A stretch of DNA of 64,000 nucleotides from positions 124,001 through 188,000 of the forward strand of contig NZ_JH980292.1 in NCBI RefSeq assembly GCF_000314005.1. Reading direction: 5' to 3'. Origin of the DNA: Spirulina subsalsa PCC 9445 (lineage in GTDB: Bacteria; Cyanobacteriota; Cyanobacteriia; Cyanobacteriales; Spirulinaceae). How positions within the stretch are numbered: the stretch's first letter is position 1; every line of letters starts with the position of its first letter. Made by a program: the position numbers and the translations under genes. The notes under the pieces are model-generated. The model was not told the origin of the DNA, ran no database searches, and saw only the letters and a list, made by a program, of their open reading frames with translations. This document shows positions 43,775-61,879 of the stretch, piece after piece.

Positions 43775-44068
43775 ATGTTAGACCGCGAACAAGTCCATAA
43801 AGTGGCTCATCTTGCCCGTTTAGACTTAACACCGGAGGAAGAAACGGCTTTTACCCAACAATTGAGCAGCATTTTGGACTATTTCGAGCAACTCGAAGAA
43901 TTAGACACGGACAACGTTCCTCCCACGACTCGCGCTATTGAGATTAGCAACGTCACTCGGCCGGATACTTTAAGGACGATGGAAGACCGGGAGAAGATGC
44001 TACAAGAAGCACCGGAACAAGAGGGGGATTTTTTCCGAGTCCCTCAAATCCTCAGTACAGAGGATTAG
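43775..44068 (+). CDS. gatC: Asp-tRNA(Asn)/Glu-tRNA(Gln) amidotransferase subunit GatC
   Basis: 97 residues. [44 protein letters not shown] and the C-terminal [22 protein letters not shown] are diagnostic of GatC, the small stabilising subunit of the GatCAB transamidosome. gatA and gatB are elsewhere. An intrinsic terminator follows and separates it from the CRISPR leader. Confidence 0.95.
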
Positions 44069-44081
44069 GGACTGATCTTTT

Positions 44082-44148
44082 CACCCTACCCTATCCCACG
44101 ATGAGGGGATTTCCCCCAATTTGCGCGACGGGGTAGGTGTTTTTTTTT
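44082..44148 (+). terminator. Intrinsic terminator of gatC
   Basis: An outer stem CACCCTACCC with GGGGTAGGTG (one bulge) encloses a GGGGATTTCCCC hairpin and is followed by a run of nine T. It ends the gatC transcript before the CRISPR leader. Confidence 0.7.
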
Positions 44149-44212
44149 GGCTTTGGACAGATTCGGCTGAAAGGCTTGGGGGGATTGGGTTTGATGGGGG
44201 TGGTCAAGTTGA

Positions 44213-44302
44213 GGGTGTCGCGCACCTTACAGGGCAAGGGTTTCAGCCGTTTCTTGCTTTTGCTGGGAGGCTGTGTTATAGTTTTGGGGTGGGTGTCGCG
44301 CA
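44213..44302 (+). promoter_or_regulatory. CRISPR leader: promoter and 12-bp direct repeat
   Basis: The direct repeat GGGTGTCGCGCA occurs at 44213-44224 and 44291-44302, 78 bp apart. Between them TTGCTT (44254-44259) and TATAGT (44277-44282), separated by 17 bp, look like a sigma-70 promoter with a start near 44289. The leader identity follows from the array polarity: the degenerate repeat is at the other end. Confidence 0.5.
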
Positions 44303-44348
44303 AGTCAAGCGGGAAAACCAGATAGAGTAACGCTTTCAGGCTGCCGCA

Positions 44349-47300
44349 GTTGAAATGCTGTATAATGCCTATGAGGTATTGAAACGGGTAAGTTGCTGTC
44401 ATTGAGTAAGGGGTCAGTTTTGGTTGAAATGCTGTATAATGCCTATGAGGTATTGAAACGTAATTCTGACGTAGTTTTCCAGTCCCCCGGCTCTGTTGAA
44501 ATGCTGTATAATGCCTATGAGGTATTGAAACTGACGAAACCACACCAGGACTTAGTAGCCAAGAGTTGAAATGCTGTATAATGCCTATGAGGTATTGAAA
44601 CCTACCGAATCAATGAGGACAGGGTGTCCAAGATGAGTTGAAATGCTGTATAATGCCTATGAGGTATTGAAACGCGTTGAGGGCAGTCTCCTGTATGGCT
44701 GCGTTGGGTTGAAATGCTGTATAATGCCTATGAGGTATTGAAACGCACCTTTGGGTTCGTGCCAGATTCTTTTGTCGTTGTGTTGAAATGCTGTATAATG
44801 CCTATGAGGTATTGAAACTGTGTTTAGGATGATTAGTGTTGATGGCTATGTTGTTGAAATGCTGTATAATGCCTATGAGGTATTGAAACCGAAACTACCA
44901 AAGGAGAAGTACGGGCGTTCTATGGTTGAAATGCTGTATAATGCCTATGAGGTATTGAAACAGGCTTTTAGAGGAAGCCAACGCCGATGAAGCCGTTGAA
45001 ATGCTGTATAATGCCTATGAGGTATTGAAACACAATGAACCCATGCTTAGTTACCCATCTCTACCTATGAAAGTTGAAATGCTGTATAATGCCTATGAGG
45101 TATTGAAACCTGTCCAGCCGCCCTGAAATCCCGCGACGGAGTTGAAATGCTGTATAATGCCTATGAGGTATTGAAACGGTAGTGGGGAAGGCGAAGGGCG
45201 ATCGCCTCTCGGTTGAAATGCTGTATAATGCCTATGAGGTATTGAAACTCTGTATTTAAGGTTAGAACTCCCGCCCCGTATAGTGTTGAAATGCTGTATA
45301 ATGCCTATGAGGTATTGAAACAGATTACCTACTAGGCAGTTCGCGCTACGATACGTTGAAATGCTGTATAATGCCTATGAGGTATTGAAACTCCTTTAGA
45401 TAACTATCTTCTCTCAAAAAAAATGGTTGAAATGCTGTATAATGCCTATGAGGTATTGAAACAAACAAGGCTAGGAGCAACCATTGTGATGGCTGCGTTG
45501 AAATGCTGTATAATGCCTATGAGGTATTGAAACCTTCCAGCCAGAAGGGCGGAAAGAGACGGAGGAAGCGGTTAAGTTGAAATGCTGTATAATGCCTATG
45601 AGGTATTGAAACTGGAAACTGCTATCCGAGAGATAGCACTCTTGTAAATTTGTTGAAATGCTGTATAATGCCTATGAGGTATTGAAACGAGGAGAAGTCA
45701 GGGAGAATTTATAACACGCCGATTAAGGTTGAAATGCTGTATAATGCCTATGAGGTATTGAAACAAAACAGATGCGGCAAACTTAGGATCTGACAAAAGT
45801 TGAAATGCTGTATAATGCCTATGAGGTATTGAAACTGACTTTCGATGGGTGACAGACCTTCTTAAGGATTACGGGTGTTGAAATGCTGTATAATGCCTAT
45901 GAGGTATTGAAACTTTTATTATTAGTCCCATGTGACAATAACATCGAGTTGAAATGCTGTATAATGCCTATGAGGTATTGAAACGGGTTCAGGCCCGGGG
46001 GCAAAACTGCCTAAGAGGCCGCGTTGAAATGCTGTATAATGCCTATGAGGTATTGAAACAGCCTCACCAGCAGACCCCGGACTGGGATAACCGTTGAAAT
46101 GCTGTATAATGCCTATGAGGTATTGAAACTAATCTGTCTTATGTCGCTCGGATCAACGTAATGTTGATCACGACGTTGAAATGCTGTATAATGCCTATGA
46201 GGTATTGAAACGCTGATGGGTTGAATGAAAACACGCTTGTGCTAAAGTTGAAATGCTGTATAATGCCTATGAGGTATTGAAACAGACCAACCCAACACCA
46301 ATAAACCTTAGACCCAGTTGAAATGCTGTATAATGCCTATGAGGTATTGAAACCAGGACTCCGTTCTGGTACAGAATCATCCCCCGTGTTGAAATGCTGT
46401 ATAATGCCTATGAGGTATTGAAACGAAACAAGGGGAGAACCACATCCGATGGATAGGTTGAAATGCTGTATAATGCCTATGAGGTATTGAAACAAGCAAC
46501 ACCTACAGGAGGAGAAATCATGCCAGTTGAAATGCTGTATAATGCCTATGAGGTATTGAAACAATACCCAACGAAATGTAAAGAGCATAATCGGTAGTTG
46601 AAATGCTGTATAATGCCTATGAGGTATTGAAACTCAGCTACAAATATTGACCAGTATGCGGCCAGTTGAAATGCTGTATAATGCCTATGAGGTATTGAAA
46701 CCCCATCATTGCACCTTGAAGGTCTTTCCCCGTGTGTCCTGTTGAAATGCTGTATAATGCCTATGAGGTATTGAAACTGAGAAACAGGCGGCAGCAGCGT
46801 TTCAAGCCGGGGTTGAAATGCTGTATAATGCCTATGAGGTATTGAAACATTGAAAAGAAGACAGCATGAGGAAAAAACACCCGGTTGAAATGCTGTATAA
46901 TGCCTATGAGGTATTGAAACGCCCAAGCGGTGCAACGCGCCGCCCAAGCCAAAGTTGAAATGCTGTATAATGCCTATGAGGTATTGAAACCCAAGCCAGT
47001 GATTCCGCATCTTGCCCCGTTGTGGAGAGTTGAAATGCTGTATAATGCCTATGAGGTATTGAAACGATTTTTCCCTCGGGGATGGGTGCATCAGGTGCGA
47101 GTTGAAATGCTGTATAATGCCTATGAGGTATTGAAACCGTTTTCCGCTCGGAGTGCGCTTGCTCCAGAGTCGGTAAGTTGAAATGCTGTATAATGCCTAT
47201 GAGGTATTGAAACGTAGTAAGCACGCTCCGATATTTTGGCGACTCGGGGGGTTGAAATGCTGTATAATGCCTATGAGGTATTGAAACCTTGGCAAGTTTT

Positions 47301-49601
47301 CCCTCTGCTGATGCCAGCTTAGTTGAAATGCTGTATAATGCCTATGAGGTATTGAAACCCACCCGAAGGCAATCCACGCCACAAACTGAGCGACTCTGTA
47401 GTTGAAATGCTGTATAATGCCTATGAGGTATTGAAACTTGTACTGCCTTGGGTGGGCTGCGCAAGGATTACCGTTGAAATGCTGTATAATGCCTATGAGG
47501 TATTGAAACAATATGTGCAAGGATGGGGGGGGAGACAATCCCCGTTGAAATGCTGTATAATGCCTATGAGGTATTGAAACGAAAAGAAAAACTCAGTTGT
47601 ATTTATCCGGTTGCTAGTTGAAATGCTGTATAATGCCTATGAGGTATTGAAACTTGAATGCCTTCAAGTAGAGATTGACTACTTGAGTTGAAATGCTGTA
47701 TAATGCCTATGAGGTATTGAAACTGATGATCTGTCCTGCAAGCTCTTTAAGAAGAAAGTTGAAATGCTGTATAATGCCTATGAGGTATTGAAACATCATC
47801 GTCTCCAGTCAACGTGCAACTTGTTGATGTTGAAATGCTGTATAATGCCTATGAGGTATTGAAACAAGGAAGCTTAAACCCTTACTGGGAGAGGGTTTGT
47901 TGAAATGCTGTATAATGCCTATGAGGTATTGAAACCAATCACATCAATCTCTTTAACCGACTTCACGATTGAAAGTTGAAATGCTGTATAATGCCTATGA
48001 GGTATTGAAACTCTATAATTAGTAGGCATTATTTTTTAACTCAGTAAATTGTTGAAATGCTGTATAATGCCTATGAGGTATTGAAACTCGTACGGAGACG
48101 TCTTGCCGGGCCGGCAAGTACTTGTTGAAATGCTGTATAATGCCTATGAGGTATTGAAACTTGGGCAAAGCGATCGCTAGGATTCAAACCTAGTGTTGAA
48201 ATGCTGTATAATGCCTATGAGGTATTGAAACTTACAGTATGGGTTCAAGCCATGAGTAGTTACCCATGTTGAAATGCTGTATAATGCCTATGAGGTATTG
48301 AAACAAAATATGCTGAATTAAAAATACATGGCATCCCTGTTGAAATGCTGTATAATGCCTATGAGGTATTGAAACCAAGCGAAACTTAGCCAAACTGTAA
48401 GGCCTATACTTAGGTTGAAATGCTGTATAATGCCTATGAGGTATTGAAACTGCTCATCAAGCCCGCTCCCTTCTGCGAGTTCGTTGAAATGCTGTATAAT
48501 GCCTATGAGGTATTGAAACTATTAAACGAGTCCCCATTGAAATCCCCCGCATTAGTTGAAATGCTGTATAATGCCTATGAGGTATTGAAACGGTACACTT
48601 CGTCGTCAAAGAACCTGAACAGCAAGTTGAAATGCTGTATAATGCCTATGAGGTATTGAAACCTTCGGCCGGGTGGGTGGCACGGATTAGTACAGCCGTT
48701 GAAATGCTGTATAATGCCTATGAGGTATTGAAACCCGGATGTCGCTCATGATGGGGCGCTTGTTGTTCGTTGAAATGCTGTATAATGCCTATGAGGTATT
48801 GAAACAAAGCGAGAAAGCAGGCAAAAATTATAAAGGGAAAGTTGAAATGCTGTATAATGCCTATGAGGTATTGAAACGTAAAAGAAGACCGAAAATTATC
48901 GGGATTACATCCAGCGTTGAAATGCTGTATAATGCCTATGAGGTATTGAAACAATTCAGGGGAATGACACAGCAAGCCTGGCTGAGTTGAAATGCTGTAT
49001 AATGCCTATGAGGTATTGAAACAGAGTGTACGGAAACGTTCCCATACGCCCCTCGTTGAAATGCTGTATAATGCCTATGAGGTATTGAAACATTGCGATA
49101 ATTACGGGGATAAATGAACTCTTCTGGTTGAAATGCTGTATAATGCCTATGAGGTATTGAAACTTTGCCCAAACACATAAACGCTCTAATGATGTAATGT
49201 TGAAATGCTGTATAATGCCTATGAGGTATTGAAACAAAATCGGGATCAATCACTTGTCGAATCCAGTCGCGTTGCGAGTTGAAATGCTGTATAATGCCTA
49301 TGAGGTATTGAAACCCCCTATTTGTTCTCTGACGGTGGTCGCGATTATGTTGAAATGCTGTATAATGCCTATGAGGTATTGAAACAGCCGGGACAGTTCC
49401 GCCCCCGGCGAGGGCAGGAGCGTTGAAATGCTGTATAATGCCTATGAGGTATTGAAACGAGAGTCCCCGGAAGCCCGCACAACATTAAACCGGAGTTGAA
49501 ATGCTGTATAATGCCTATGAGGTATTGAAACATAACTCAAATCTCTCTCTCCTTAAAGCGTGATGTTGAAATACTGTATAATGCCTATGAGGTGTTGAAA
49601 C
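44349..49601 (+). CRISPR. CRISPR array, 73 repeats and 72 spacers, no cas genes nearby
   Basis: The 37-bp repeat begins GTTGAAATGCTGTATAATG and ends CCTATGAGGTATTGAAAC. I counted 73 copies from 44349 to 49601 by marking every start. Seventy-two are identical as read. The last (49565-49601) has two substitutions (GAAATACTG, GAGGTGTTG), which marks the trailer end and gives rightward transcription. Spacers are 31 to 45 bp, mean about 35. Within the repeat AATGCC-TATGA-GGTATT forms a 6-bp hairpin, just 5' of the GAAAC end. A Cas6 cut there would leave the 8-nt tag ATTGAAAC, common to type I and III systems. The subtype cannot be assigned without cas genes. Confidence 0.99.
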
Positions 49602-49633
49602 GTAGATAAAAGAAAATCGCGGAAGAAAGCAAA

Positions 49634-49951
49634 ATGATTAAGTGGCAGACTTATCGCGGATATATGTCTCTTGACACCAGCGATCCAAACCAAATAACGA
49701 AAATTTTGTTAGAAGGCGAGGGAAAGGAATTTTTAGAGCAAAGATTAGCAGAAGGGTGGTATGGACGGTATGGCCACCTATATCACGATCATGCAAGAGC
49801 TATTGATCTACTCGCGGCCATTACTCTTTCTCCGGGAGATTTTGCCTTTCCGAAAATTGTAGAAGGTCAGGAAATACTGGAGAAGTACGACTCACGGAAG
49901 AAGTACGACTCAGCACCAAGATCAAGCCAAGAAGAATATCGGACATATTGA
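49634..49951 (+). CDS. Hypothetical protein directly beyond the CRISPR trailer
   Basis: 105 residues, starting 33 bp after the last repeat. The sequence IKWQTYRGYMSLDTSDPNQI, EGKEFLEQRLAEGWYGRYGHLYHDHARAIDLL and LSPGDFAFPKIVEGQEILEKY is protein-like, rich in aromatic and charged residues. The C-terminus has a short internal repeat (KYDSRKKYDS). No family is recognised. It could be an accessory or accidental neighbour. There is no terminator between it and the array, so the array transcript may run into it. Confidence 0.55.
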   Translation: MIKWQTYRGYMSLDTSDPNQITKILLEGEGKEFLEQRLAEGWYGRYGHLYHDHARAIDLLAAITLSPGDFAFPKIVEGQEILEKYDSRKKYDSAPRSSQEEYRTY

Positions 49952-50110
49952 GATAGAGACATGAATCTCTCGGAAAATCCAACGACAGAGCGGTTAATAC
50001 TGGCAAAATTAATCAACGGTGTAGCATTACTATCCTCAGCTAAATCATCGGTGTCGTAGTGCCGAACAATATGATGTTCCCCTAACGGTTTTTGAAAATA
50101 TACTAATTAG

Positions 50111-50242
50111 GGCTTCCTGAATAACTCTGCTGGTGGGGCTAGGGAACAGGGGAGAGGGGGAGCAGGGGAATAGCCAAAACTCTTGACTATTGCCTTTTCC
50201 CGACTCCCGACTCCCCAACTCTCGGACTTATTCCGCAAGTCC
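50111..50242. mobile_element. MITE-like element, inverted copy
   Basis: 132 bp. The left end GGCTTCCTGAATAACTCTGC matches the inward right end of the 2475-2732 copy. The right end, read inward, is GGACTTGCGGAATAAGTCCG, matching the left end of the 26561 copy. The termini have drifted at one or two positions. No target duplication was seen (CTAATTAG against TACCTGTT). The interior is GGGAACAGGGG and CGACTCCCGACTCC runs. It fills most of the gap 49952-50263. Confidence 0.7.
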
Positions 50243-50263
50243 TACCTGTTCAGAATTGGCAGA

Positions 50264-51667
50264 TTATGCCAGAGCAAACTTGAGGATAAACAACACCGCC
50301 AAGATCCACATCCCAATCTTCGTTTCATGGAACTTGCCCTGAAACGACTTAATCACCGGATAAGCAATTAACCCCACCGCCAAACCTTCGGCAATGGAAT
50401 AACTCAAGGGCATAATCACAATAGTCAGAAAAGCCGGAATCGACTCCGCCGGATCTTGCCAACGGATATGGGTGACACTCCCCGCCATTAATACCCCCAC
50501 AATCAATAAAGCAGGAGCCGTAGCAAAACCCGGAATCGCTTGCAACAGGGGAATAAAAAACAGCGCCAAAACAAATAAAATCCCTGTCACTACCGCCGTG
50601 AAACCACTGCGCCCCCCTTCCGATACCCCGGCCGCCGATTCAATGTAACTGGTGACAGTGGAGGTGCCGAGAATCGCCCCGGCTGTGGTCCCCACAGCAT
50701 CAGCCATGAACGCTCGATCCACTCGGGGAAATTCGCCATTTTCCTCAATGTAACCCGCTTTAACCCCTAATCCGGTTAAAGTGCCTACGGTGTCGAACAA
50801 GTCTACAAACAGAAAGACAAAAATCACTGTAAACAGTTCAAACCCATTACTGCGGGTCATTTCCCCAATCCCCACAAACGCCTGCCCCACCAGATCAACT
50901 GGGAGTTGAGGTAAACCGACGAGGCCTTGAGGTGGGGGGGCAATGCCCAAAATCCAGCCTAGGATGGCGGTGGCTAAAATACCCCACAGCAGCGCCCCTT
51001 TAATCCGACGGGCGAGAAAAGCTGAGGTCAGGAAAATCCCCACAACGGCCATTAGGGTTTTGGGGTTGCTTAAATCCCCTAATCCGGTGAGGGTGGCAGG
51101 ATTGGCAACGATTAGCCCCGCCCCTCCGGTTTCTGGGTTGCCGGAGAGGGCAATATAGGCAATAAATAAGCCAATCCCGGCGGCGGTGGCGTGTCGGATA
51201 CAGTCGGGAATCATGGCCACAATTAGGGTGCGGACGTTAAATAGACTGAGGATGATAAAAATAATCCCCTCAATCAAAACGGCACCTAATGCTACCCGCC
51301 AACTAATGCCTAAGCCAATGACCACGGAATAGGCAAAGTAGGCGTTTAATCCCATACCGGGGGCGAGGGCAAAGGGGAATTTACCATAGAGTCCCATGAT
51401 AAAAGTTGCGATCGCCGCCGAAAGAGCCGTAGCAATCACCAACTCCCCAAACAAGTCCCCCGACTCTTCCAAATAAATCGCGGCCGAGAGAATCCCCGGA
51501 TTAACAGCCAAAATATAGGCCATCGTGACAAAGGTAGTCACCCCCGCTAAAATTTCCGTGCGAAAGTTGGTCTGTAAACCCGTAAAGTCAAAATAATCAG
51601 CGATTTTGACCGCCACACCCCCAGACGCTGGAGAGGGATCTGGCTTTTGTTCCGGTTCTTCTGTCAT
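50264..51667 (-). CDS. NCS2-family (AzgA-like) purine permease
   Basis: 467 residues with 12 or more hydrophobic segments. FRTEILAGVTTFVTMAYILAVNPGIL, ALAPGMGLNAYFAYSVV, VFLFVDLFDTVGTLTGLG and TSTVTSYIESAAGVSEGGRSG are signatures of the AzgA/GhxP-type hypoxanthine-guanine-adenine proton symporters. It is an inner-membrane protein and 89 bp downstream of the SH3 protein gene on the same strand. Confidence 0.92.
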   Translation of the reverse strand: MTEEPEQKPDPSPASGGVAVKIADYFDFTGLQTNFRTEILAGVTTFVTMAYILAVNPGILSAAIYLEESGDLFGELVIATALSAAIATFIMGLYGKFPFALAPGMGLNAYFAYSVVIGLGISWRVALGAVLIEGIIFIILSLFNVRTLIVAMIPDCIRHATAAGIGLFIAYIALSGNPETGGAGLIVANPATLTGLGDLSNPKTLMAVVGIFLTSAFLARRIKGALLWGILATAILGWILGIAPPPQGLVGLPQLPVDLVGQAFVGIGEMTRSNGFELFTVIFVFLFVDLFDTVGTLTGLGVKAGYIEENGEFPRVDRAFMADAVGTTAGAILGTSTVTSYIESAAGVSEGGRSGFTAVVTGILFVLALFFIPLLQAIPGFATAPALLIVGVLMAGSVTHIRWQDPAESIPAFLTIVIMPLSYSIAEGLAVGLIAYPVIKSFQGKFHETKIGMWILAVLFILKFALA

Positions 51668-51716: not shown

Positions 51717-51742
51717 CACAGTAAACAGTGAACAGTGAACAA
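51717..51742. repeat. Short heptad repeat (ACAGTGA type)
   Basis: CACAGTAAACAGTGAACAGT and flanking bases form about four 7-bp units, related in style to the heptads at 60424. It lies in the 89-bp space before the permease. Confidence 0.5.
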
Positions 51743-51756
51743 TAACTTATCCGAGA

Positions 51757-52407
51757 CTAGGGACAAGGAATGACATTCATCCAACCACCCCGACCGCCGG
51801 AAATCCAACCGGATTGGGGAGAGGAGATTTGTAACCAAATACGCCCTTCACTATCGGTAAACGTTTCCCCCGTAAGGGTCACACGCTGACCTTGTTGAAC
51901 CCCACTAATAGCCCCCAATGTCCCATCAGGACGAGAACGCACGGATAACCCTAACAGCGCCTGACGACAACTTCCAGCCGTGGCCGGGAGAGGAGAACCC
52001 GGACGACTAAGCGTTACGGGAGCAGTCGGTTGAGTCGTGGTGGGGGGAGTAGCAGGCGTTTGGGGGCGAGGTTGGGGTTGGGGTTGGGATTGAGGGGGCG
52101 TCACCACTGTTGCCGAACAGGTGGTTAAATAACGGGCAATCACAAAACCCCGTCTCGGCGCTTCCACCGCGACCCAACCCCTTTCTCCGGTGTTGACAAT
52201 GCGTAACTTGGTGCCAGGATTCAAAGTAGCGAGGGTTTCACTATCTTGATCAACAGAAGGACGGGAAAAGATATCTAGCATTCGGTTAGCTTGTCGGCAG
52301 GTTTCCTCCGCCGTTTGTTGAGCCACTTCTAGGGATTCTGCTTGGACAAGGGCAGGATACCCCCCAAACAGTGTTAGGAGTAATAGGAAAAAAATGCGCG
52401 TTTTCAT
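51757..52407 (-). CDS. Exported protein with two SH3-like domains
   Basis: 216 residues. The signal peptide MKTRIFFLLLLTLFGGYPALVQA is clear. The first SH3b domain (about 40-95: MLDIFSRPSVDQDSETLATLNPGTKLRIV, GWVAVEAPRRGFVIARYL) is followed by a Pro/Gln/Thr linker and a second SH3b domain (LLGLSVRSRPDGTLGAISGVQQGQRVTLTG...GWISGGRGGWMNVIPCP). Bacterial SH3 domains bind cell-wall peptides, so a periplasmic role is probable. Paired cysteines may be disulfide-bonded. Confidence 0.82.
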   Translation of the reverse strand: MKTRIFFLLLLTLFGGYPALVQAESLEVAQQTAEETCRQANRMLDIFSRPSVDQDSETLATLNPGTKLRIVNTGERGWVAVEAPRRGFVIARYLTTCSATVVTPPQSQPQPQPRPQTPATPPTTTQPTAPVTLSRPGSPLPATAGSCRQALLGLSVRSRPDGTLGAISGVQQGQRVTLTGETFTDSEGRIWLQISSPQSGWISGGRGGWMNVIPCP

Positions 52408-52439
52408 GGCTTGATCGGCTTAGGCTTAAACATCAATAA

Positions 52440-52682
52440 TTTAACAAAAATGTTGCGGAATTCCCCTTCCTCGCTTGCAGGGACCGGATGGACTTGACCA
52501 CTAACTCCCAAAGCGAAAACCAAGCTAAAAAGGGCTGTGTTGCAAGAGAAAATTTGGGTCTTAGGAACTAGGACTTCTGCCTGGGGAGGGAAGATAAGAC
52601 TCGCTATATTTCGGTATAGAAAGCACTTCCCATTGAATCAGGAAGCTCCATCCTCGCGCCTAGGCAGGGTGGGGTAGTTCAC
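52440..52682 (+). mobile_element. TnpB-less IS200/IS605-like element, copy B
   Basis: It begins after TTTAAC (52440-52445) and ends GTAGTTCAC at 52682, 237 bp after TTTAAC. It is nearly identical to copies A and C but lacks about 54 bp after GGATGGA (the segment containing ATACTGAG). The flank after the right end is GGCCATTGTAGACTAACG, different from A and C. The retained right part (from AACTCCCAAAGCGAAAACC) contains everything conserved in the putative guide-RNA scaffold. Confidence 0.75.
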
Positions 52683-52685
52683 GGC

Positions 52686-53143
52686 CATTGTAGACTAACG
52701 AATGCTTTTCGTTGGGCAGGAGGCCCCATCTTCGGCGTTATCTTGATCGTCGGAAGAAGACCGTCGATTTTATCGACGGTTTGATTCTTCCTAGACCGAA
52801 GTTTTTAGATAAAGCAGGGCGTAAGATTAAATTACTACAAAGAAGGCTTAGGAATAAAAACAAAGGTTCTAATACATGGCAGAAACTACAGCATCGGATC
52901 GCTCTATTACATGAAGCCGTAGCCAACAGAAGAAAGGATTACCATTTCAAGTTAGCCCATCAACTCTGTGATGGAGTCGGTAGTAAAACAGCGTGGATTA
53001 ACTGCGGTCGGTGCGCCCGTGGTCAAACAGCCCAGTCATGGCGTTCTGTCCGGGACTTTGGTCTAGATAAGAGTCTATATGGGAATCCCTCGCTTTCAGC
53101 GAGGGGAGGTTCAATCCTTGGGTTTAAGCCGTTTCATGCTTAA
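52686..53143 (+). pseudogene. tnpB (IS200/IS605 OrfB) remnant
   Basis: An open frame of 143 codons from 52712 carries FLDKAGRKIKLLQRRLRNKNKGSNTWQKLQ followed by ALLHEAVANRRKDYHFKLAHQL, the central part of TnpB/OrfB proteins. The N-terminal domain, the RuvC catalytic residues and an intact zinc finger are missing. The tail reads through a short motif (DKSLYGNPSLSARGG) encoded by the element's right-end hairpin. It is too short to be active and lies just right of copy B. Confidence 0.75.
53087..53105 (+). repeat. Right-end hairpin of the tnpB remnant
   Basis: CCCTCGCT-TTC-AGCGAGGG is a perfect 8-bp stem preceded by GGAAT. It is the type of hairpin found at the right end of IS200/IS605-group elements. 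Confidence 0.6.
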
Positions 53144-53196
53144 TTCTTCCCCTCTTGCCTCTTGCCTATTCCCTAAAGTGCGCACTTGAGCAAAAA

Positions 53197-54615
53197 TCAA
53201 GCCACAGCGACTAAATCATTAACGATTCTATCCTCTGAACAAGGCAAACCACTGTGACCCTCTAGAGCATCCGCATTTTGAGCCGAAGCAATGGTTAAAA
53301 CCACCGTTAAGGTTTCGAGGAAGTTAATCAACCATTGACACTTTTCTACAGGTTCTCCTTGATACCGTTGGATTAAAGCGGAGATGTAGGTGATCATGTC
53401 TTGATAACTATTGGGGCAAATCAAGAGGATTTTTAACACTAAAACCGTCAGGGTGAGATAATGATTCCGACGGGTGAGAACATTGCAAGGGTGATTCGCT
53501 TCGGGATCATCGGGAGGATTCAATAAGTAGGCGAGAACCCGCTTACAAGTTCTCAAAAGTAAGCCAGCATCCCAAGGCACATCATCATAATGGGTGTAAA
53601 GGGGTTCAATTTGTTTGGCGAGTTTGGCTTTAATTAACCAACCAGAAACTTGCTCATCTCCTAGAGCTACTCCCAAATATTTAAGTAAACTATTTTTAAA
53701 GTCTTTGAACGGTAAACCCTGAGTCTGCTTGAGAAAAATATTAGCTAAACTTTGGTAGTTAAAGCTTTTTTGTTTCACCAAAACCTTTTGAATCAGTTGT
53801 AAGCTGTTGCGGTTGAGTTTAGTCGGGTTATAGGAAGAACGCCCAGCATTGGGAACATCTAAATGAGCCAGATAAATAGCCAGTTTAAACTTATATTTTT
53901 TATGAATTCGTCGCGCTAAAATCCGGGCGCAGTCCCGTTCTAGTTCGGAACTGCCTGAGTTAAGAGACTGATCCAAAAAGATATAATAGGCATACCGTCG
54001 GCTCCAAGTGTCTTCATATCTTCGGGTATACCAGTTTGCTAAAAACACTAACTTTTGATAATCTGGACTGGCTAAAAAGCATTTGCGCCATTCAGTTAGT
54101 CTACGCTTGACCATGGAAAGGGAGCGATTTTGTAGGCGGCTTTCGGCTAAACTCTCAACGAGAATCGGAATATTTTGATATTCGTTACGCAGTAAAAATT
54201 CTTTAATTAAGGTATAATAACATTGCAGCAAAACTTGGCGAAATTGTTCCTGCAAGTTAATCACAATCAAATCGTAAAAAGCTTGTTCTAGATTTTTATT
54301 AAACGGGATATCTTCAATGAATAAGTTTACAAATTCTTCGATAATCTTTTCCGAGGGGGAAGATTTAGCTTGTTGCTGAAAGTAGTCTAGGATAATCGCT
54401 TGAGAACGTTGGGCGACTTGCTCAATATTAGCCTCACAGGATTCTACATCCATTTGGTTAGTAAAAGGCTCTTTTGCTATAGAACCTTTTGCCGCAGAAT
54501 AACCAGTAGATTGGCTAGACTTAAACGGATTAGAATTAGCCTTATTATAATGGGCTTTAGTATAATTGGAGTGAGAAAAGGGTGGGATGTAGTCTGAAGT
54601 TTGTGTGAGTTTCAT
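53197..54615 (-). CDS. Large conserved-type hypothetical protein
   Basis: 472 residues, no transmembrane segment. The first 55 residues are polar and probably disordered (Ser/Lys/Asn-rich). The rest is strongly helical, with runs such as LVNLFIEDIPFNKNLEQAFYDLIVINLQEQF, YEDTWSRRYAYYIFLDQSLN, ARILARRIHKKYKFKLAIYLA and LANIFLKQTQGLPFKDFKNSLLKYL. I recall similar helical proteins as conserved cyanobacterial hypotheticals, but no function is known to me. It is flanked by a tnpB remnant and a 379-bp upstream gap. Confidence 0.75.
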   Translation of the reverse strand: MKLTQTSDYIPPFSHSNYTKAHYNKANSNPFKSSQSTGYSAAKGSIAKEPFTNQMDVESCEANIEQVAQRSQAIILDYFQQQAKSSPSEKIIEEFVNLFIEDIPFNKNLEQAFYDLIVINLQEQFRQVLLQCYYTLIKEFLLRNEYQNIPILVESLAESRLQNRSLSMVKRRLTEWRKCFLASPDYQKLVFLANWYTRRYEDTWSRRYAYYIFLDQSLNSGSSELERDCARILARRIHKKYKFKLAIYLAHLDVPNAGRSSYNPTKLNRNSLQLIQKVLVKQKSFNYQSLANIFLKQTQGLPFKDFKNSLLKYLGVALGDEQVSGWLIKAKLAKQIEPLYTHYDDVPWDAGLLLRTCKRVLAYLLNPPDDPEANHPCNVLTRRNHYLTLTVLVLKILLICPNSYQDMITYISALIQRYQGEPVEKCQWLINFLETLTVVLTIASAQNADALEGHSGLPCSEDRIVNDLVAVA

Positions 54616-54994
54616 GAGCAGAACACCTGAATCTAACGCCTTAAATAAATCAAGCTAATATCATCTTTTCCCGTTTAAGGGCTGATCGTGATACCTTATC
54701 CTATGGGTAGAGACTTCTGGAGTGCAAGCGGTTTGGCTAGATTTATTGAAAACAATAAAATATCAGCAATTCGTTTAAAGAATTGATGAAGTTGTCCAGC
54801 ATTTGTATCTAGTTTGCATCAATTTCTGTGGTTTTTTCGGAGGTAGTAACCGTCTCTACAAGACCAGATTGCTACAATCCGTAAAATTCCATAAGTATTT
54901 CCCACAGGTCAACGAGGTCACTCACCAGTCAGAAAAAAGCGTGATAGCTTAGGACAAAGAGTAATTTTCCACTAGACAACACCTTGAAACAACT
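54616..54994. other. 379-bp divergent intergenic region
   Basis: The region lies between the 472-aa gene (minus) and the DUF6391 gene (plus) and presumably holds both promoters. It is AT-rich. I see no repeat, tRNA or strong hairpin in it. Confidence 0.4.
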
Positions 54995-55624
54995 ATGACT
55001 GAATCTGTAAGCTTTGATTTCAGTAAGTTGTGGGATTTTGCCCCCGCGACTCCCTATCCCCACCAAGATACGGATTTACTGCAACAGTTTTTTTTCTTGC
55101 CCGGTTTACGGGAAATCCTCATGTTGCGTCAAGTTCACGCTTTAGAACATGGGACGGTTTGGGTACTGAGTGAGACGGAAGGGACTCAGGGGAAACAGTC
55201 CCAAGATAATCAGGCTCTGGGGGGACTCTCCACAGACCAAGGGTTTTATCTCTACGGAGAGGTGAATCCGGTTGATTTGCGTCGTGCGGTACAAATGGCT
55301 TTAAAACGGATGCAGGGGGGAGAATGGGATTTAGCGGTACATCCTCGTTGTGGTACTAATGTTTCTGTGATGATGATGGTGGGGGCCGGGATGATGTTGG
55401 GGACTTATTTCCTGCTGCCGCGTAATCCGATTGAACAGGTTTTGGGGTTGGGATTAGCTTCTCTGACGGCGGTTCATATTTCCCCGGATTTGGGTCGCTT
55501 GGCGCAAAAATACCTAACGACGGCGATTCCGTTTAATCTAACGCTGCAAGAGATTTTCCCGACGATGGATATGTGGGGACGAGAGGCGCATTTTGTCCGT
55601 TTAGGCTGGCAGGAGTGGGTCTGA
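54995..55624 (+). CDS. DUF6391 domain-containing protein
   Basis: 209 residues. LREILMLRQVHALEHGTVWVLSE, GGLSTDQGFYLYGEV and LAVHPRCGTNVSV are the conserved parts. HALEH and the HPRCGT motif suggest metal binding. Two hydrophobic segments (VMMMVGAGMMLGTYFLL and IEQVLGLGLASLTAVHI) suggest membrane association. The family is cyanobacterial and uncharacterised. It is upstream of psaE on the same strand. Confidence 0.7.
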   Translation: MTESVSFDFSKLWDFAPATPYPHQDTDLLQQFFFLPGLREILMLRQVHALEHGTVWVLSETEGTQGKQSQDNQALGGLSTDQGFYLYGEVNPVDLRRAVQMALKRMQGGEWDLAVHPRCGTNVSVMMMVGAGMMLGTYFLLPRNPIEQVLGLGLASLTAVHISPDLGRLAQKYLTTAIPFNLTLQEIFPTMDMWGREAHFVRLGWQEWV

Positions 55625-55712
55625 GGTTCATAAAACTTAAAACAAAAGGAGAGCAGAGAACCACCTTGGGATAGTACCCTTAAATCTAGATCATTAAGGG
55701 AGAATAATATCA

Positions 55713-55949
55713 ATGGTTAAACGCGGTGATAAGGTAAGAATCTTAAGAAAGGAGTCTTACTGGTATCAAGATGTCGGCACGGTTGCTAGTGTTGATAAAA
55801 GTGGCATTATCTATCCGGTCATCGTGCGTTTTGATAAAGTCAACTACACTGGATTCAGTGGCAGTCCTTCCGGGCTGAACACCAATAACTATGCTGAACA
55901 TGAGCTAGAAGTGGTGGAAGCGGCCCCGGAGAAGAAAGCAAAGGCTTAA
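55713..55949 (+). CDS. psaE: Photosystem I reaction centre subunit IV (PsaE)
   Basis: 78 residues. [39 protein letters not shown] and [24 protein letters not shown] are diagnostic of PsaE. It is a stromal-side SH3-like subunit that helps dock ferredoxin and supports cyclic electron flow. It is preceded by AAGGGAGAA and followed 15 bp later by mutM, so the two are probably co-transcribed. Confidence 0.98.
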
Positions 55950-55964
55950 GCTGAAAAATCCAGA

Positions 55965-56825
55965 GTGCCTGAATTACCAGAAGTTGAAACAGTTCGTCAG
56001 GGTCTAAATCAATTGACTCTGCACCAAAGGATTGAGGGTGGGGAGGTGTTGCATCAGCCAACGCTTGCCTACCCTTTTTCTGTGGCGGATTTTCTGGGAG
56101 GGGTTGGGGGATGTGCGATCGCCTCTTGGGAAAGACGAGGGAAGTATTTACTGGCGCAATTGACCACCCCCCAAGGGAAAGCGGGGGGTTGGTTAGGGGT
56201 ACATTTGCGCATGACGGGTCAGTTATTTTGGGTCAAACGGGATGAACCTTTGGGGAAACATACAAGGTTGCGTCTGTTTTTTGCTGGGGGTCAGGAGTTG
56301 CGTTTTATTGATATCCGAACTTTCGGCCGGATTTGGTGGGTTTCGCCCCTTCAGGAGCCTGCTGAGGTGATTACAGGCCTCACTCGTTTGGGGGTAGAGC
56401 CTTTGAGTGAACAGTTTACGGTGGAGGGGTTGGGGGAACAGTTGGCGAAACGACGGGGGCCGATTAAGGGGGTGTTGTTGGATCAGAAGGTGGTGGCGGG
56501 TCTGGGGAATATCTACGCCGATGAGGTGTTATTTCAGAGTCGGATTCGACCGGATGCGATCGCCTCTACCCTCACCCCCCAACAAGTCAACGCCCTCCAC
56601 CAAGCCATTATAGCCGTCTTAAACCGAGCCATTGAACGGGGCGGCACGACGTTTAGTGACTTCCTCAACTTGTTAGGAGTCCGGGGCAATTACGGCGATT
56701 CCGCTTGGGTCTACGGTCGCACAGAACAACCCTGTTTAGTCTGTCAGACTCCCATTCAACGGATGAAAATATCCGGGCGTTCCTCTCATTTTTGTCCGAC
56801 TTGTCAGACCCGGAGTTTAGACTAG
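55965..56825 (+). CDS. mutM: Formamidopyrimidine-DNA glycosylase (MutM/Fpg)
   Basis: 286 residues from the GTG at 55965; Pro2 and Glu3 (PELPEVETV) are the catalytic N-terminus after Met removal. WERRGKYLLAQL, HLRMTGQL, LGNIYADEVLFQSRI (helix-two-turn-helix) and the C-terminal zinc finger CLVCQTPIQRMKISGRSSHFCPTC are complete. It excises 8-oxoguanine. Its position 15 bp after psaE could tie repair of oxidative DNA damage to photosynthetic expression. Confidence 0.96.
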   Translation: MPELPEVETVRQGLNQLTLHQRIEGGEVLHQPTLAYPFSVADFLGGVGGCAIASWERRGKYLLAQLTTPQGKAGGWLGVHLRMTGQLFWVKRDEPLGKHTRLRLFFAGGQELRFIDIRTFGRIWWVSPLQEPAEVITGLTRLGVEPLSEQFTVEGLGEQLAKRRGPIKGVLLDQKVVAGLGNIYADEVLFQSRIRPDAIASTLTPQQVNALHQAIIAVLNRAIERGGTTFSDFLNLLGVRGNYGDSAWVYGRTEQPCLVCQTPIQRMKISGRSSHFCPTCQTRSLD

Positions 56826-56934
56826 GGCTTGCTAATACCCATTTAATTTGTCTTCAGCAAGCCCTCGCTCAGAACAACAAGCGAGTTCAGCCCCTACTGT
56901 AAACATCACACACAAATACAGGACTAAACTCGCT
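56824..56934 (+). terminator. Two hairpins after mutM
   Basis: AGGGCTTGCT (56824) pairs with AGCAAGCCCT (ending 56865), resembling a collapsed pair of MITE ends. A second stem, AGCGAGTTCAG (56880-56890) with CTAAACTCGCT (56924-56934), has one mismatch. Either could end the psaE-mutM transcript. U-tracts are absent. Confidence 0.4.
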
Positions 56935-56987
56935 GATGCTAATAATCACGAACAAGAATTAACAATCGTTAACACTAAATAACCAGT

Positions 56988-57260
56988 CTAGCCAAGATCC
57001 AAATGTGAGAGGACATCTTCTGCCCATTCTTGGCTTAAAACTTCTTCATTTTTATCAACGGAATTGTTGTGAAGAATGTAGTATTGCCGTTTGTGCGCCA
57101 AGCTGTCCAAACTGCCAACATGGATAAAACTCTTAGGTAAACGGTCATTTTCAAAAGCATACTGACCAACGTGGAACTGATTCACATGATCCTTATCAAC
57201 CCACAACCCCCATCCTTTTTCTGCATCGTTCAATTCTGCGAGGAAGTTTAAAGTATTCAT
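56988..57260 (-). CDS. Small hypothetical protein
   Basis: 90 residues, MNTLNFLAELNDAEKGWGLW...DVLSHLDLG. Acidic and soluble, with conserved-looking GWGLWVDKDHVNQFHVGQYAFEN. It starts at the ATG at 57260, preceded by AGGAGAGCC. The family is not recognised. Upstream, 57261-57526 holds a copy of the TTGACAAGTTAAG-type repeat module and GGGAACAGG/TTCCCTA runs and no gene. Confidence 0.65.
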   Translation of the reverse strand: MNTLNFLAELNDAEKGWGLWVDKDHVNQFHVGQYAFENDRLPKSFIHVGSLDSLAHKRQYYILHNNSVDKNEEVLSQEWAEDVLSHLDLG

Positions 57261-57526
57261 GGCTCTCCTAATCGTTTTTTATAACTTCTGACTCTTTTAT
57301 TATGGGATCAAAGTCTTGGTTTCGTCTCATCGTATTTACGGAATGTAATGCAAGGATACGGAAGTTAATATAGCCAACCTATTACCCAATCCTGACAAGT
57401 TAAGACTCAACGTTGGAAGTCAAGGGAACAGGAAACGGTGAACAGGAAACAGGGGAGTCGGGAGTCGGGGGGAGAGGGAGAGAAAGGGAGACGAGGAATT
57501 AAGACTTATTCCCCATTCCCTATTCC

Positions 57527-58576
57527 CTATTCCTCGTTCCCTAGGCCCTCAATGTAGCGCGCCAAAATATCAATACAGCCTGCAATTGCCCCAAGGTGCG
57601 CGATTTCGTAGCCGTGGGTGTTTTCTGTGGGAAATCCTAAACAGGCAGCGCGGGCAACGTGACCAAATTTCATCGCAATGGAGGCATCACTGCCAAAACC
57701 GCTAATGGCGGCGAATTGATAGGAAATATTGGCCAATTGGGCAGCCCGGGCAAGTTCTTGATTTAATCCTTCGTCATAGATGCCATAACCATCTTGGGAG
57801 AGAATCACGGGAATAGCACCGTCGAGGATGGGATATTCTGGGGCGAGGGGACAAATTTCTAGGGCAATCAGGGCATCTAGGCGATGATTTTGGCTGAAGT
57901 AGAGCGCACCTAACGCGCCGACTTCTTCTTTGGCGGAAGCGACGAGGTAAACGGTGGGTTTGGGGTGGCTAATTCGTTGGGCTAGAGCGAGTAAGATAGC
58001 GAGGGAGGCTTTGTTATCGAGGGTGTAACTGGCGATGTAGTTGTGGAGGCGAAAGGGCTGTTTTCGGTGTTTGCCCACCACAACACGGGTTCCCGGACGC
58101 ACTCCGGCTTTTTGGAGTTCGCCGGGGGTGCGTTTGGTTTCCACCCAGACATCTTGCCAACGGAGGGGATTTTTGTCTTGTTGGGCTTTTTGGGGGGACT
58201 CGTGGGAGACGTGACGGGAGCCAAAGGAGAGGATTCCGGACAGGGTAGTGCGATCGCCTAAAATATCCACAACGCCCTCGCCATACACCCAAGGAAAAGA
58301 TCCCCCTAGGTTACGAATTCTTAACCGTCCTTTGTTATCTATCCCCTTGACAATTGCCCCGATTTCGTCCTTATGGGCGGTAATGGCGATCGCTCTTTCT
58401 GCCTCACGACCGGGAATTTTGAGGATAATATTCCCCGCTTGATCTTGCCCATACTCCACCCCTAACCCCTGTAAACGTTGCACGAGAAACTGATCAATTT
58501 CCCCTTCTACGCCACTCGGAGAGTGTTGTTCCACTAACTCAGCAATTTGATTAAAGAGAGCATCGTAATCCGCCAT
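57527..58576 (-). CDS. M42-family metallopeptidase
   Basis: 349 residues. Metal ligands of the di-zinc aminopeptidase site are visible in order: ITAHKDEIGAIV, SYTLDNKASLAILLALA, SAKEEVGALGALYFS (Glu-Glu catalytic pair) and the later histidine in FPTENTHGYEIAHLG. The family (FrvX/YsdC/tetrahedral aminopeptidase) trims small peptides in the cytoplasm and forms dodecamers. The length is normal. Confidence 0.92.
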   Translation of the reverse strand: MADYDALFNQIAELVEQHSPSGVEGEIDQFLVQRLQGLGVEYGQDQAGNIILKIPGREAERAIAITAHKDEIGAIVKGIDNKGRLRIRNLGGSFPWVYGEGVVDILGDRTTLSGILSFGSRHVSHESPQKAQQDKNPLRWQDVWVETKRTPGELQKAGVRPGTRVVVGKHRKQPFRLHNYIASYTLDNKASLAILLALAQRISHPKPTVYLVASAKEEVGALGALYFSQNHRLDALIALEICPLAPEYPILDGAIPVILSQDGYGIYDEGLNQELARAAQLANISYQFAAISGFGSDASIAMKFGHVARAACLGFPTENTHGYEIAHLGAIAGCIDILARYIEGLGNEE

Positions 58577-58652
58577 AAATTTTTTCTGACTTTTCCGGAT
58601 ATCCTTCCCTCTTTACAGGAAAAGGGAATGGTAGATGCACCCTGATAGCTCT

Positions 58653-58692
58653 CCCATGTCATTTTCCCTGAAGTGGCATGGGATTTTTTTTT
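58653..58692 (+). terminator. Plus-strand intrinsic terminator with no upstream gene
   Basis: CCCATGTCA (58653-58661) pairs with TGGCATGGG (58674-58682; one G-U), followed by A and nine T (58684-58692). The T-run is on the plus strand although both flanking genes are on the minus strand. It would stop transcription entering from the left or an antisense/small RNA. Confidence 0.6.
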
Positions 58693-58696
58693 CCGC

Positions 58697-59101
58697 TCAA
58701 CGGTGTTTTAACCGTTTTGCTTCCAGGAAGGATTTAGGACAAGCCGTTGACTCCTCTATCAGGGTTTGTTCATAGTGTCTCATTTCTGGGCTATTTTCGC
58801 CATAGACTCCTAAAATTTGTTGGCGACAGCACTCTGTGGCAAATTGATTAAATTCCGAGGGAATCACCCCATACATTTCTGTAAATTTTTCTGGAGTCAC
58901 TCGGCAAAAGGAAGGACGTTGATCATAAATCCGGCATTGACGCGATGTTTTATCATAGTGAATGCACCAGCCATCCTCTCCCACTAAACTCATATAGAGT
59001 TCGAGTTCCTCTGGAGTGAGATAATCGGGGAGGTCAGGGCGATCAGTCGGATCCAAATGACAACAAGCCCCACAGTGTTCAATACAATGCCAAGTTGCCA
59101 T
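58697..59101 (-). CDS. YkgJ-family cysteine-cluster protein
   Basis: 134 residues. The cysteine cluster CIEHCGACCHLDP followed by DGWCIHYDKTSRQCRIYDQRPSFC matches the YkgJ/UPF0153 iron-sulfur or zinc-binding family of unknown function. Cysteines near the C-terminus (ECCRQQ, TACPKSF) may complete the site. Confidence 0.88.
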   Translation of the reverse strand: MATWHCIEHCGACCHLDPTDRPDLPDYLTPEELELYMSLVGEDGWCIHYDKTSRQCRIYDQRPSFCRVTPEKFTEMYGVIPSEFNQFATECCRQQILGVYGENSPEMRHYEQTLIEESTACPKSFLEAKRLKHR

Positions 59102-59289
59102 AGAACAAGTCCGGGAAAAATAAAGCTTTCCATAATATCATAACAAGGACGAATTTTGGCACACCCTCCCTAAGACTTATCTGTATTGTATAGTTTTGTA
59201 TCGTTCCTGAAAAAATGTCCCCTGCCCGTGTAGTATGTAGAGTGAATTTTTTTGTATATTCATTTGGGTCGGGTAATAAGAGTAAAACA

Positions 59290-59421
59290 ATGGACTTTAT
59301 CACAAGTGCAGTTGGTAGCGTTAACTGGGAATTAATCTTTCAGCTAACTTTCGTAGCCTTGATCATGATTGCTGGTCCGGTCGTGATTTTCTTGTTGGCC
59401 TTCAATGGCGGGGATCTTTAA
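59290..59421 (+). CDS. psb30: Photosystem II protein Psb30 (Ycf12)
   Basis: 43 residues from the ATG at 59290. A single transmembrane helix ([20 protein letters not shown]) follows the short lumenal/stromal N-terminus [15 protein letters not shown], with the tail NGGDL. This matches Psb30/Ycf12, a PSII core peptide near PsbJ and cytochrome b559. Its TAA stop codon is part of the TTTAAC after which mobile element copy C is inserted. Confidence 0.93.
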
Positions 59422-59713
59422 CAAAAATGTTGCGGAATTCCCCTTCCTCGCTTGCAGGGAGGGGATGGATAGCAACCCAGCAATATACTGAGCGACAGCA
59501 AATCCATGCTAAGATAAATATATCTTGACCACTAACCCCCAAAGCGAAAACTAAGCTAAAAAGGGCTGTGTTGCAAGAGAAAATTTGGGTCTTAGGAACT
59601 AGGACTTCTGCCTGGGTCTGAAAGATAAGACTCGCTATATTTCGGTATGGAAAGCACTTCCCATTGAATCAGGAAGCTCCATCCTCGCGCCTAGGCAGGG
59701 TGGGGTAGTTCAC
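59417..59713 (+). mobile_element. TnpB-less IS200/IS605-like element, copy C (complete)
   Basis: It begins after TTTAAC (59417-59422), which contains the psb30 stop, and ends GTAGTTCAC at 59713, 291 bp in all. It contains the uninterrupted ATACTGAGCGACAG where copy A holds a MITE. The right hairpin CCATCCT...AGGGTGG and scaffold match A and B. The flank beyond (GCTGGAGAGTTTGACC) is the would-be guide. It carries no ORF. The psb30 mRNA probably reads through it. Confidence 0.8.
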
Positions 59714-59775
59714 GCTGGAGAGTTTGACCACTCGACAGTTTTAGCGGGTCACTCAATTAGCCAGTCACTCAATAG

Positions 59776-59801
59776 AACACCCTCCTGTAGAGGAGGGTGT
59801 T
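59776..59801 (+). terminator. Strong intrinsic terminator, probably of psb30
   Basis: AACACCCTCCT-GTAG-AGGAGGGTGTT is a perfect 11-bp stem with a 4-nt loop, followed by TGAGTTTT. It lies 355 bp after the psb30 stop, and only about 60 bp once element copy C is removed. It is probably the original psb30 terminator displaced by the insertion. Confidence 0.75.
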
Positions 59802-59826
59802 TGAGTTTTGGGGGGAACGGGATTGA

Positions 59827-60144
59827 TTATGGCTCATCATCCATTAGGGGAATGGCGATCGCACCCAAAGCGAAAACCAGCACCAAAGGCATGGGACAAT
59901 GGGAAACGAAGGTCGAAACAATTCCACCAATCGAGCCCAGAAACAACACCCACAACAAGACTCTTTCTTCTAAACAGAGTCCTTTTTGCTCTTTAATCAA
60001 TCTTAAGACTTTAAGGGGAACCGGTTCAGGCATCACTGCACCGGGGGGGAACGCCCAATAGTTGCCAGACCGTTCACAGAACAAGTCTGTCCAACCATTT
60101 TCCATACACCATTCCTGAATCCATTCGTCTCTGTAATGTTTCAT
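59827..60144 (-). CDS. Hypothetical protein with C-terminal membrane segments
   Basis: 105 residues. An aromatic N-terminal part (MKHYRDEWIQEWCMENGWTDLF, GNYWAFPPGAVMPEPVP) is followed by two hydrophobic stretches (VLLWVLFLGSIGGIVSTFV and MPLVLVFALGAIAIPL). It is probably a small thylakoid or plasma membrane protein. Similar short proteins exist in cyanobacteria, but no function is known to me. Confidence 0.7.
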   Translation of the reverse strand: MKHYRDEWIQEWCMENGWTDLFCERSGNYWAFPPGAVMPEPVPLKVLRLIKEQKGLCLEERVLLWVLFLGSIGGIVSTFVSHCPMPLVLVFALGAIAIPLMDDEP

Positions 60145-60501
60145 CGCAAGCTCTCGGTCAATCTACTGGAAGTAATCGCAAAAAGGTAAGAAGGTTAGTA
60201 AGTTTGCGTTGTTTGTGTGTTCTTTATGTCTCGTGGTTCAGTGTAGTTTTACATTCAGTATGATCCCGGTGGTCACTCACTCAATATGACCCAGACCGTT
60301 ATTAGGAATATTAGCAAGGTGTCCTGAAAGATGCGTCAAAACAACATCAAAGTTTACTTTTCAAGCAGAAACAATCAGTATATATACTTATTCATTAAAC
60401 GGATCTAAAGAACCGATGCCAAGAGTTGACAGTTGAGAGTTGCCAGTTAATAGTTGATACAGGTAAAAATACCAACCCATCGATAGGCTAAGGAGAAATG
60501 A
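60145..60501. other. 357-bp region upstream of argJ, with heptad repeats
   Basis: The gene-free region between divergent genes includes five 7-bp units at 60424-60458 (AGTTGAC, AGTTGAG, AGTTGCC, AGTTAAT, AGTTGAT). It ends with an AGGAG ribosome-binding site (60491) before argJ. No RNA gene is recognised. Confidence 0.6.
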
Positions 60502-61761: not shown

Positions 61762-61767
61762 CATCCT

Positions 61768-61799
61768 CCCGACGCTGACCGCAAGCGGTACAGCGCGGG
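61768..61799. repeat. REP-like palindrome after argJ
   Basis: CCCGACGCTGACCGC-AA-GCGGTACAGCGCGGG folds into a 13-bp GC stem with small bulges, preceded by GACATCCT. It shares its outer halves with 6080-6110. It may double as the argJ terminator. Confidence 0.6.
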
Positions 61800-61875: not shown

Positions 61876-61879
61876 CGAG

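Follow-up and report, generated by a model that had tools for sequence, protein, structure and literature searches.

Adjacent arrays of clustered regularly interspaced short palindromic repeats (CRISPR) are frequent in type I-D systems without being obligatory (PMC10212523). In Anabaena sp. PCC 7120, eleven arrays, all transcribed, are divided among III-D, I-D and CRISPR-associated transposon (CAST) systems, five of them being assigned to I-D by the specificity of Cas6 (PMC9938897). The I-D locus described in Candidatus Phormidium alkaliphilum has no adjacent array, and its authors suggest arrays in trans (PMC10715143). By these two accounts, I-D arrays served in trans are already known in cyanobacteria. 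The present analysis concerns a stretch of 64,000 nucleotides (the window) of Spirulina subsalsa PCC 9445, which carries on its + strand, at 44349–49601, an array of 73 repeats of 37 nt and 72 spacers. This array is most likely served in trans by the type I-D system of the same genome.

The I-D operon and a solitary Cas6d appear, from their sequences, to serve nine arrays with the same leader and the same family of repeats. As in Anabaena sp. PCC 7120 (PMC9938897), there are many chromosomal arrays, several of which are tied to I-D through Cas6 and not by position. Unlike in Anabaena, a single leader is common to all nine arrays, the I-D operon has none of them at its side, cas6d stands apart, and the arrangement is read from sequence. 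The gene content (Cas3d, Cas10d, Csc2, Csc1, Cas4, Cas1, Cas2 and Cas6d) is that reported for Synechocystis sp. PCC 6803 (PMC10212523), as are the spacers of about 35 nt and the long leader, whereas array and cas6d are here away from the operon. The missing adjacent array recalls Candidatus Phormidium alkaliphilum, whose locus is described without Cas1 and Cas2; the operon here has both. No description of such a set-up in Spirulina was located in the literature, as judged by titles and abstract openings, most subscription journals being outside that scope.

The array family and the type I-D loci

The window comprises bases 124001–188000 of contig C2 (5,218,291 bases) of a two-contig genome of 5.32 Mb. 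As the original prediction had it, 72 of the 73 copies of the repeat GTTGAAATGCTGTATAATGCCTATGAGGTATTGAAAC are identical. The remaining one is the last (49565–49601, + strand), changed at 2 of 37 positions, and marks the leader-distal end; the leader (44122–44348, + strand) is on the left and the degenerate end on the right. All 72 spacers are distinct and measure 31–45 nt. Their mean of 35.4 nt resembles the value of about 35 nt published for I-D, and the leader, 226 nt when counted from GCGCGAC, resembles the published leaders of 202–220 bp (PMC10212523). The 5′ edge of the leader is formed by TGCGCGAC (44122–44129), and GTCGCGCA occurs twice within it (44217–44224 and 44295–44302). In the window outside the array, no repeat stretch of at least 12 nt recurs, and Rfam at its gathering threshold gave no family over 44100–49700. 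The exact repeat pattern had no match in a collection of genome contigs that may omit the present genome.

The window was predicted to hold no cas gene, and whole-genome profile searches agree, with no match to Cas1, Cas6, RAMP or Cas10d inside it. None was present in its 20-kb flanks either, where a cas operon close to the window would have told against the prediction. The matches lie elsewhere in the genome: four for Cas1, one for Cas6 (PF10040 and TIGR01877, on the same gene), 12 for RAMP and one for Cas10d, the nearest to the window along C2 being the cas1 at C2:655633. When 49 of the 53 non-overlapping window open reading frames (ORFs) of at least 80 amino acids were submitted to PADLOC, the only CRISPR-related family among the 25 of 70 matched families listed was WYL. 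The TIGR03985-like regulator placed at 30.5 kb was confirmed at 30535–31875 (E=1.4e-87).

A genome search with the window repeat led to a sister array 1.07 Mb distant. A looser search returned 310 copies, the sum of eight arrays, and a search with the leader returned nine full or near-full copies. The array thus belongs to a family of nine, which the original prediction had missed. It consists of the window array A1 (73 repeats), A2 (1.249 Mb, 27 repeats), A3 (1.360 Mb, 28), A8 (1.630 Mb, 30), A5 (2.445 Mb, 47), A7 (2.630 Mb, 20 repeats beyond the mismatch limit of the looser search), A9 (2.799 Mb, 68), A4 (3.043 Mb, 2) and A6 (3.450 Mb, 35), with a total of 330 repeats and 321 spacers. No spacer is duplicated, and a single pair has a common 20-mer. 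Among 13 genomes of the bacterial family, the looser repeat search matched two, the present one and a congener (G012).

Homologous leaders precede all nine arrays. Counted from GCGCGAC, they measure 226 nt in all arrays but one, where the length is 225 nt, and their 5′ edge is sharp, the mean pairwise identity being 92% over the first 25 nt inside and 31% over the 40 nt outside. Repeats are nearly uniform inside each array. Across 13 consensus repeats (nine here and four in G012), the variable columns are 1, 8–12, 25 and 29 of 37, chiefly 9, 11 and 12; among three more G012 arrays, two bring additional changes in the repeat stem. In A9, eight GGTC-type repeats are all the most leader-distal and the remaining sixty are of the GATC type, an order expected if each new repeat copies the leader-end repeat. 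A tenth array near C2:2848622–2850780 has 30 repeats of GTTTTAATTCCCTCTAAATGAGTGGCTCCATTGAAGC, very unlike the family repeat, and a leader akin to that of the family, with the TGCGCGAC edge and two copies of GTCGCGCA. A short stretch around CTTACAGGGCAAGGGTTTCAGCC of the window leader also recurs at the I-C (C2:4006931) and III-B (C2:1263580) arrays, which suggests a site for a host factor common to them.

The I-D operon (C2:3880274–3893032) encodes cas3d, cas10d, csc2, csc1, cas4, cas1 and cas2, each of which exceeds the cut-off of a model for I-D or for Cas proteins in general. The effector proteins match TIGR03174, TIGR03157, TIGR03159 and TIGR03158, and in PADLOC Cas10_Id, Cas7d, Cas5d and Cas3d; the adaptation proteins match TIGR04093 (Cas1d, 430.8 bits for a cut-off of 385), TIGR00372 and TIGR01573. 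The gene cas6d is solitary at C2:3834486, 45 kb from the operon (PADLOC Cas6d, E=1.5e-134). This detachment, found in the present genome and in G012, looks like a derived state, as cas6d is about 2–3.5 kb from cas10d in five relatives. No array of the family was found within about 72 kb on the low side or 35 kb on the high side of the operon, which itself contains only a degenerate two-repeat element. The closest array of any kind that was found, at C2:3907884, has 27 copies of a different repeat.

The assignment of the family to I-D is carried by its repeat and its leader. For comparison, 80 Cas10d loci were taken, the best among 135 from named genomes. Arrays were present at 50 of these, 52 in all, and 30 loci, several of them cut by contig ends, were without one; four repeat clusters fell outside the length filter, none of them resembling the family repeat. 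All 52 I-D-adjacent repeats end in AGGGATTGAAA(C). Two of them gave no full 37-nt alignment and were dropped. From the other 50, the window repeat differs by 5 to 16 mismatches, the nearest being that of Lyngbya aestuarii BL J (5 of 37), while for 2000 shuffled versions of the window repeat the minimum averages 24 and is never below 15. The top-ranked named relative by Cas10d, Spirulina sp. CS-785/01, has an array in cis with its I-D operon, which includes cas6d and is taken as the G005 locus. Over its full length, the window leader aligns with the leader of that array at 152 identical columns of 229, with a score of 215; none of 200 shuffles exceeded 94.5. Seven other leaders of the family (A2 excluded) score 208–236. 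With the remaining 51 in-cis I-D leaders, the window leader aligns less closely (best score 167, median 102.5, compared to 215 for CS-785/01), so that this leader subtype is narrow.

From these relationships a mechanism may be proposed. The leader would drive a precursor CRISPR RNA (pre-crRNA), and Cas6d would cut each repeat after its hairpin, leaving an 8-nt handle ATTGAAAC; handles of 8 and 29 nt are reported for I-D (PMC10212523). The CRISPR RNAs (crRNAs) would load a Cas10d-Csc2-Csc1 Cascade that recruits Cas3d. In trans, Cas4-Cas1-Cas2 of the I-D operon would add leader-end spacers to all nine arrays, and the array-specific repeat variants would arise from copying of a mutated leader-end repeat at each integration.

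The corresponding loci in a sister species

The congener G012 possesses seven full leaders and a Cas6d 91% identical to that of the present genome. A worry that it was devoid of I-D proved wrong, another clade of I-D effectors occupying the same locus. The flanks, the accessory genes and cas4-cas1-cas2 align at 85–91% DNA identity. Neither csc1, csc2 and cas10d nor, separately, cas3d align to G012, where a different cas3-csc1-csc2-cas10d block is found. Between the two species, the proteins Cas1d, Cas4 and Cas2 are 93, 93 and 95% identical, while Csc2, Csc1 and Cas3d are 38, 28 and 25% identical and Cas10d gives no significant match. The effectors of G012 are 61–79% identical to those of G003, which belongs to another genus, the G012 Cas3 being assigned only through its 61% identity to the G003 Cas3. 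The effectors of the present genome are 68–86% identical to those of G005 and G006. Cas2d identities are 83% for G006 and 74% for G003. PADLOC recognizes both Cas10 proteins as I-D, through different models, and NCBIfam gave no match for that of G012.

As read from these alignments, the block of I-D effectors has been exchanged in place between sister species. In situ effector shuffling has been presented as a general trend, with cas9 in type II-C as the example (PMC12669027). Common to both is a Cas1 that is almost unchanged between sister species (93%) and stands next to effectors that are not related; unlike in that example, all four I-D effector genes are replaced here, and neither the arrays nor Cas6 are linked to the operon.

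The site orthologous to that of the window array is on G012 contig C122, with both flanks 87–90% identical. It carries 10 repeats of a sequence differing at 6 of 37 positions, and its 9 spacers have no 13-mer in common with the 321 spacers here. Given this other repeat sequence and the lack of a common spacer, the window array has been turned over in full since the species split. Two of 106 G012 spacers do have a 13–15-mer in common with a spacer of the present genome; both are in another G012 array, and one contains the word GGCGATCGCC, which is common in cyanobacteria.

Some differences around the array were also noted. About 10 nt follow the orthologous G012 array, compared to about 670 nt here (49602–50276), which include an ORF of 105 amino acids without NCBIfam match. 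The 10 kb at 51742–61880 of the window are missing from G012 at the corresponding place. Elsewhere, window 448–2148 encodes a protein of 566 amino acids with PADLOC matches to the defence families HEC-06 and Orf5 (E=3.4e-229), and a tandem 70-bp unit that is not CRISPR-like is present in 13 copies at C2:201351–202296.

Weighing of the type I-D assignment

Several observations weigh against service by I-D. The leader link hangs on one relative, CS-785/01, as its leader was missed in a BLAST of the window leader at E 0.01, the homology being drawn from pairwise alignment, and the GTCGCGCA/TGCGCGAC motifs precede only 1 of the 52 I-D-adjacent arrays. At columns 19/29, the stem has a C-G pair in the I-D relatives, a G-U pair in the majority of the arrays here, and no pair in A5 and in two arrays of G012. 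The hairpins of the repeats are weaker, at −5.8 to −6.3 compared to −8 to −10 kcal/mol in I-D relatives, and the best predicted fold of the window repeat itself is another one. A sigma-70 scan of 44050–44420 found no promoter. In the array-bearing G012, a Cas10d of the clade of the present genome was not found. Searches for targets, which covered the arrays A1 and A9 plus four spacers, were also negative: BLAST of A1 and A9 against phages gave no protospacer, BLAST of A1 against plasmids gave no protospacer-like match, and the four spacers, searched as 21-nt exact patterns, had no match in viral contigs.

The single plasmid match, in Stanieria cyanosphaera (72.6% identity, 9% of the query), seems to be an alignment between two arrays and was set aside. 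Two pairs of spacers overlap by 19–20 nt (A3/A9 and A3/A5), so different arrays sampled related invaders; the flanks gave no clear protospacer adjacent motif (PAM). In 593,158 bases of the genome itself (overlaps counted, arrays masked except for one A2 spacer at the end of a stretch), self-matches reached 17 nt at most.

Other Cas loci of the genome could use the array. The I-C locus (4.007 Mb), the MYXAN-type locus (0.656 Mb) and the III-B effector neighbourhood (1.262 Mb) each have a Cas1 and arrays of their own with different repeats, whereas a scan of 35 kb around the III-D effector locus (4.69 Mb, with two CARF-HEPN genes nearby) and of 35 kb around the III-C effector locus (5.03 Mb) showed no CRISPR array, a three-copy 19-nt simple repeat being set aside. 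These two modules, if they work, would have to import crRNAs. A shared pool, in which Cas6d cuts the pre-crRNAs and the crRNAs also, or mainly, load the III-D and III-C effectors, is the alternative that survives best, and it is considered possible but rather unlikely. The models applied revealed no Cas1 or Cas6 at either locus. Their Cas10 proteins are recognized by III-D-like and III-C models, and the genome has a single Cas6 of the PF10040/TIGR01877 kind. A claim that this is the sole Cas6 of the genome had to be narrowed, as the Cas6/Cmx6 of the MYXAN-type locus escapes both of these models. The array-less modules may use the same crRNAs as I-D, but the III-B-type arrays (1.264, 1.266 and 3.908 Mb) could supply them instead, and the relationships of repeat and leader favour I-D first. 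The III-B-type arrays deserve a mention of their own: the repeat GTTCCTCTTTAATGGGGGACTAAATTGAATGGAAAC of the arrays beside the III-B cas1-cas2 is met again 2.6 Mb off at C2:3907884 (where its first 18 nt were read), so that a second dispersed array family exists.

The original prediction left the choice between service in trans and a decommissioned memory. The first part is upheld by the sister arrays with the same leader, the array-less I-D operon, the lone Cas6d and the matches of repeat and leader to in-cis I-D arrays. A decommissioned memory, that is a leftover array neither extended nor used, would agree with the absence of cas genes in cis and of targets in the collections searched, but is very unlikely: the repeats are nearly all identical, the leader is conserved, the I-D operon and cas6d are complete as open frames, and the replacement of all spacers and repeats at the orthologous site of G012 argues against it. 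Service by the I-C (4.0 Mb), MYXAN-type (0.65 Mb) or III-B (1.27 Mb) locus is likewise very unlikely, for although a Cas1 lies within or close to each of them, the I-C repeat also ends in ATTGAAAC and short leader stretches of the I-C and III-B arrays match the window leader, their own repeats differ from that of the window at 18–22 of 37 positions (either strand, shifts of up to 3), the MYXAN-type locus has its own Cas6/Cmx6, and I-C is reported to employ Cas5 in place of Cas6 (PMC11903412).

A two-repeat element and the organization of the array memory

The degenerate element inside the I-D operon (C2:3890088–3890187) holds, 63 nt apart, two I-D repeats that run against the direction of the cas genes. 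Of 20 fixed positions, 3 are substituted in one repeat and 4 in the other. G012 has this region at 91.6% identity. Similar mini-arrays of two repeats and one spacer, off the main array and on the strand opposite to cas10d, were found in 34 of the 80 I-D loci and in none of the 80 reversed sequences, after one + strand repeat pair at a contig end had been dropped. In 31 of the 34, the mini-array starts 3–21 nt past the end of the cas3d match, and the next of the eight queried genes across it is MntA or Cas10d; MntA is the nearest queried gene in the cas direction in 16 of the 34 loci. Some mini-array spacers recur across genera, GAATAAGTCTG in 6 and AAATACGTCTG in 7.

Seed matches were evaluated for 36 mini-array spacers (the 34 loci, the present genome and G012), taking the best match within 1.5 kb irrespective of the PAM. 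A GT adjoins the best match at −3/−2 for 24 of 36 spacers, compared to a background of 5%, and for 22 it does so with the match located 20–120 nt towards cas10d; for the other 12 there is no GT. Matches of at least 9 were obtained for 24 of 36 spacers and for 5% of shuffles. The G012 site has 14 matches before the third mismatch, with mismatches at positions 6 and 12 and an adjoining GTT. The equivalent site of the present genome matches poorly (13 of 24), and the best match of its spacer lies elsewhere; this partly matching site is 55 nt upstream, and together with the element it spans C2:3890033–3890187.

This layout equals that of the CreR-type autoregulators, which are reported as widespread in types I and V-A (PMC12737573), and the I-D mini-array looks like a regulator of that type. 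As in CreR and CreTA (PMC12737573, PMC9458426), a cas locus contains two degenerate repeats, whose spacer may partly match a nearby promoter region beside a PAM, well in G012 and many relatives but weakly in the present genome; unlike those, the element here is in I-D loci and is a prediction from nucleotide sequences. I-D did not come up in a term search of two papers on ectopic repeats, and no description of such elements in I-D was located in the literature, as judged by titles and abstract openings. As HepT and MntA genes are on the same side, the element may also repress a toxin-antitoxin operon, in the manner of CrePA or CreTA. In both species, a HepT toxin and MntA antitoxin pair lies within the I-D operon beside cas10d and was kept through the effector exchange; the families were scanned on the G012 copies, to which those of the present genome are 91–96% identical.

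The fixed leader length (226 nt in eight of nine arrays) and the sharp 5′ edge allow a broader model to be put forward tentatively. A portable leader-array cassette, copied to at least nine sites, would give one crRNA pool fed by one Cas4-Cas1-Cas2 and one Cas6d. The pool would be read by exchangeable effectors, either of the unrelated I-D blocks and perhaps III-D or III-C, with the CreR-like mini-array tying cas10d expression to crRNA output.

Orphan arrays are often dismissed as remnants. Those of the present genome indicate one large memory, of 321 spacers in nine arrays, under one distant operon. The comparison with the congener is a natural experiment, in which effectors were swapped in place while arrays, leaders, Cas6 and integration machinery were retained. 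It makes three matters testable: whether there is a chassis, made up of array, Cas6 and adaptation modules, that does not depend on the effector; how units of leader and array spread in a genome; and whether the conserved mini-array regulates I-D loci.

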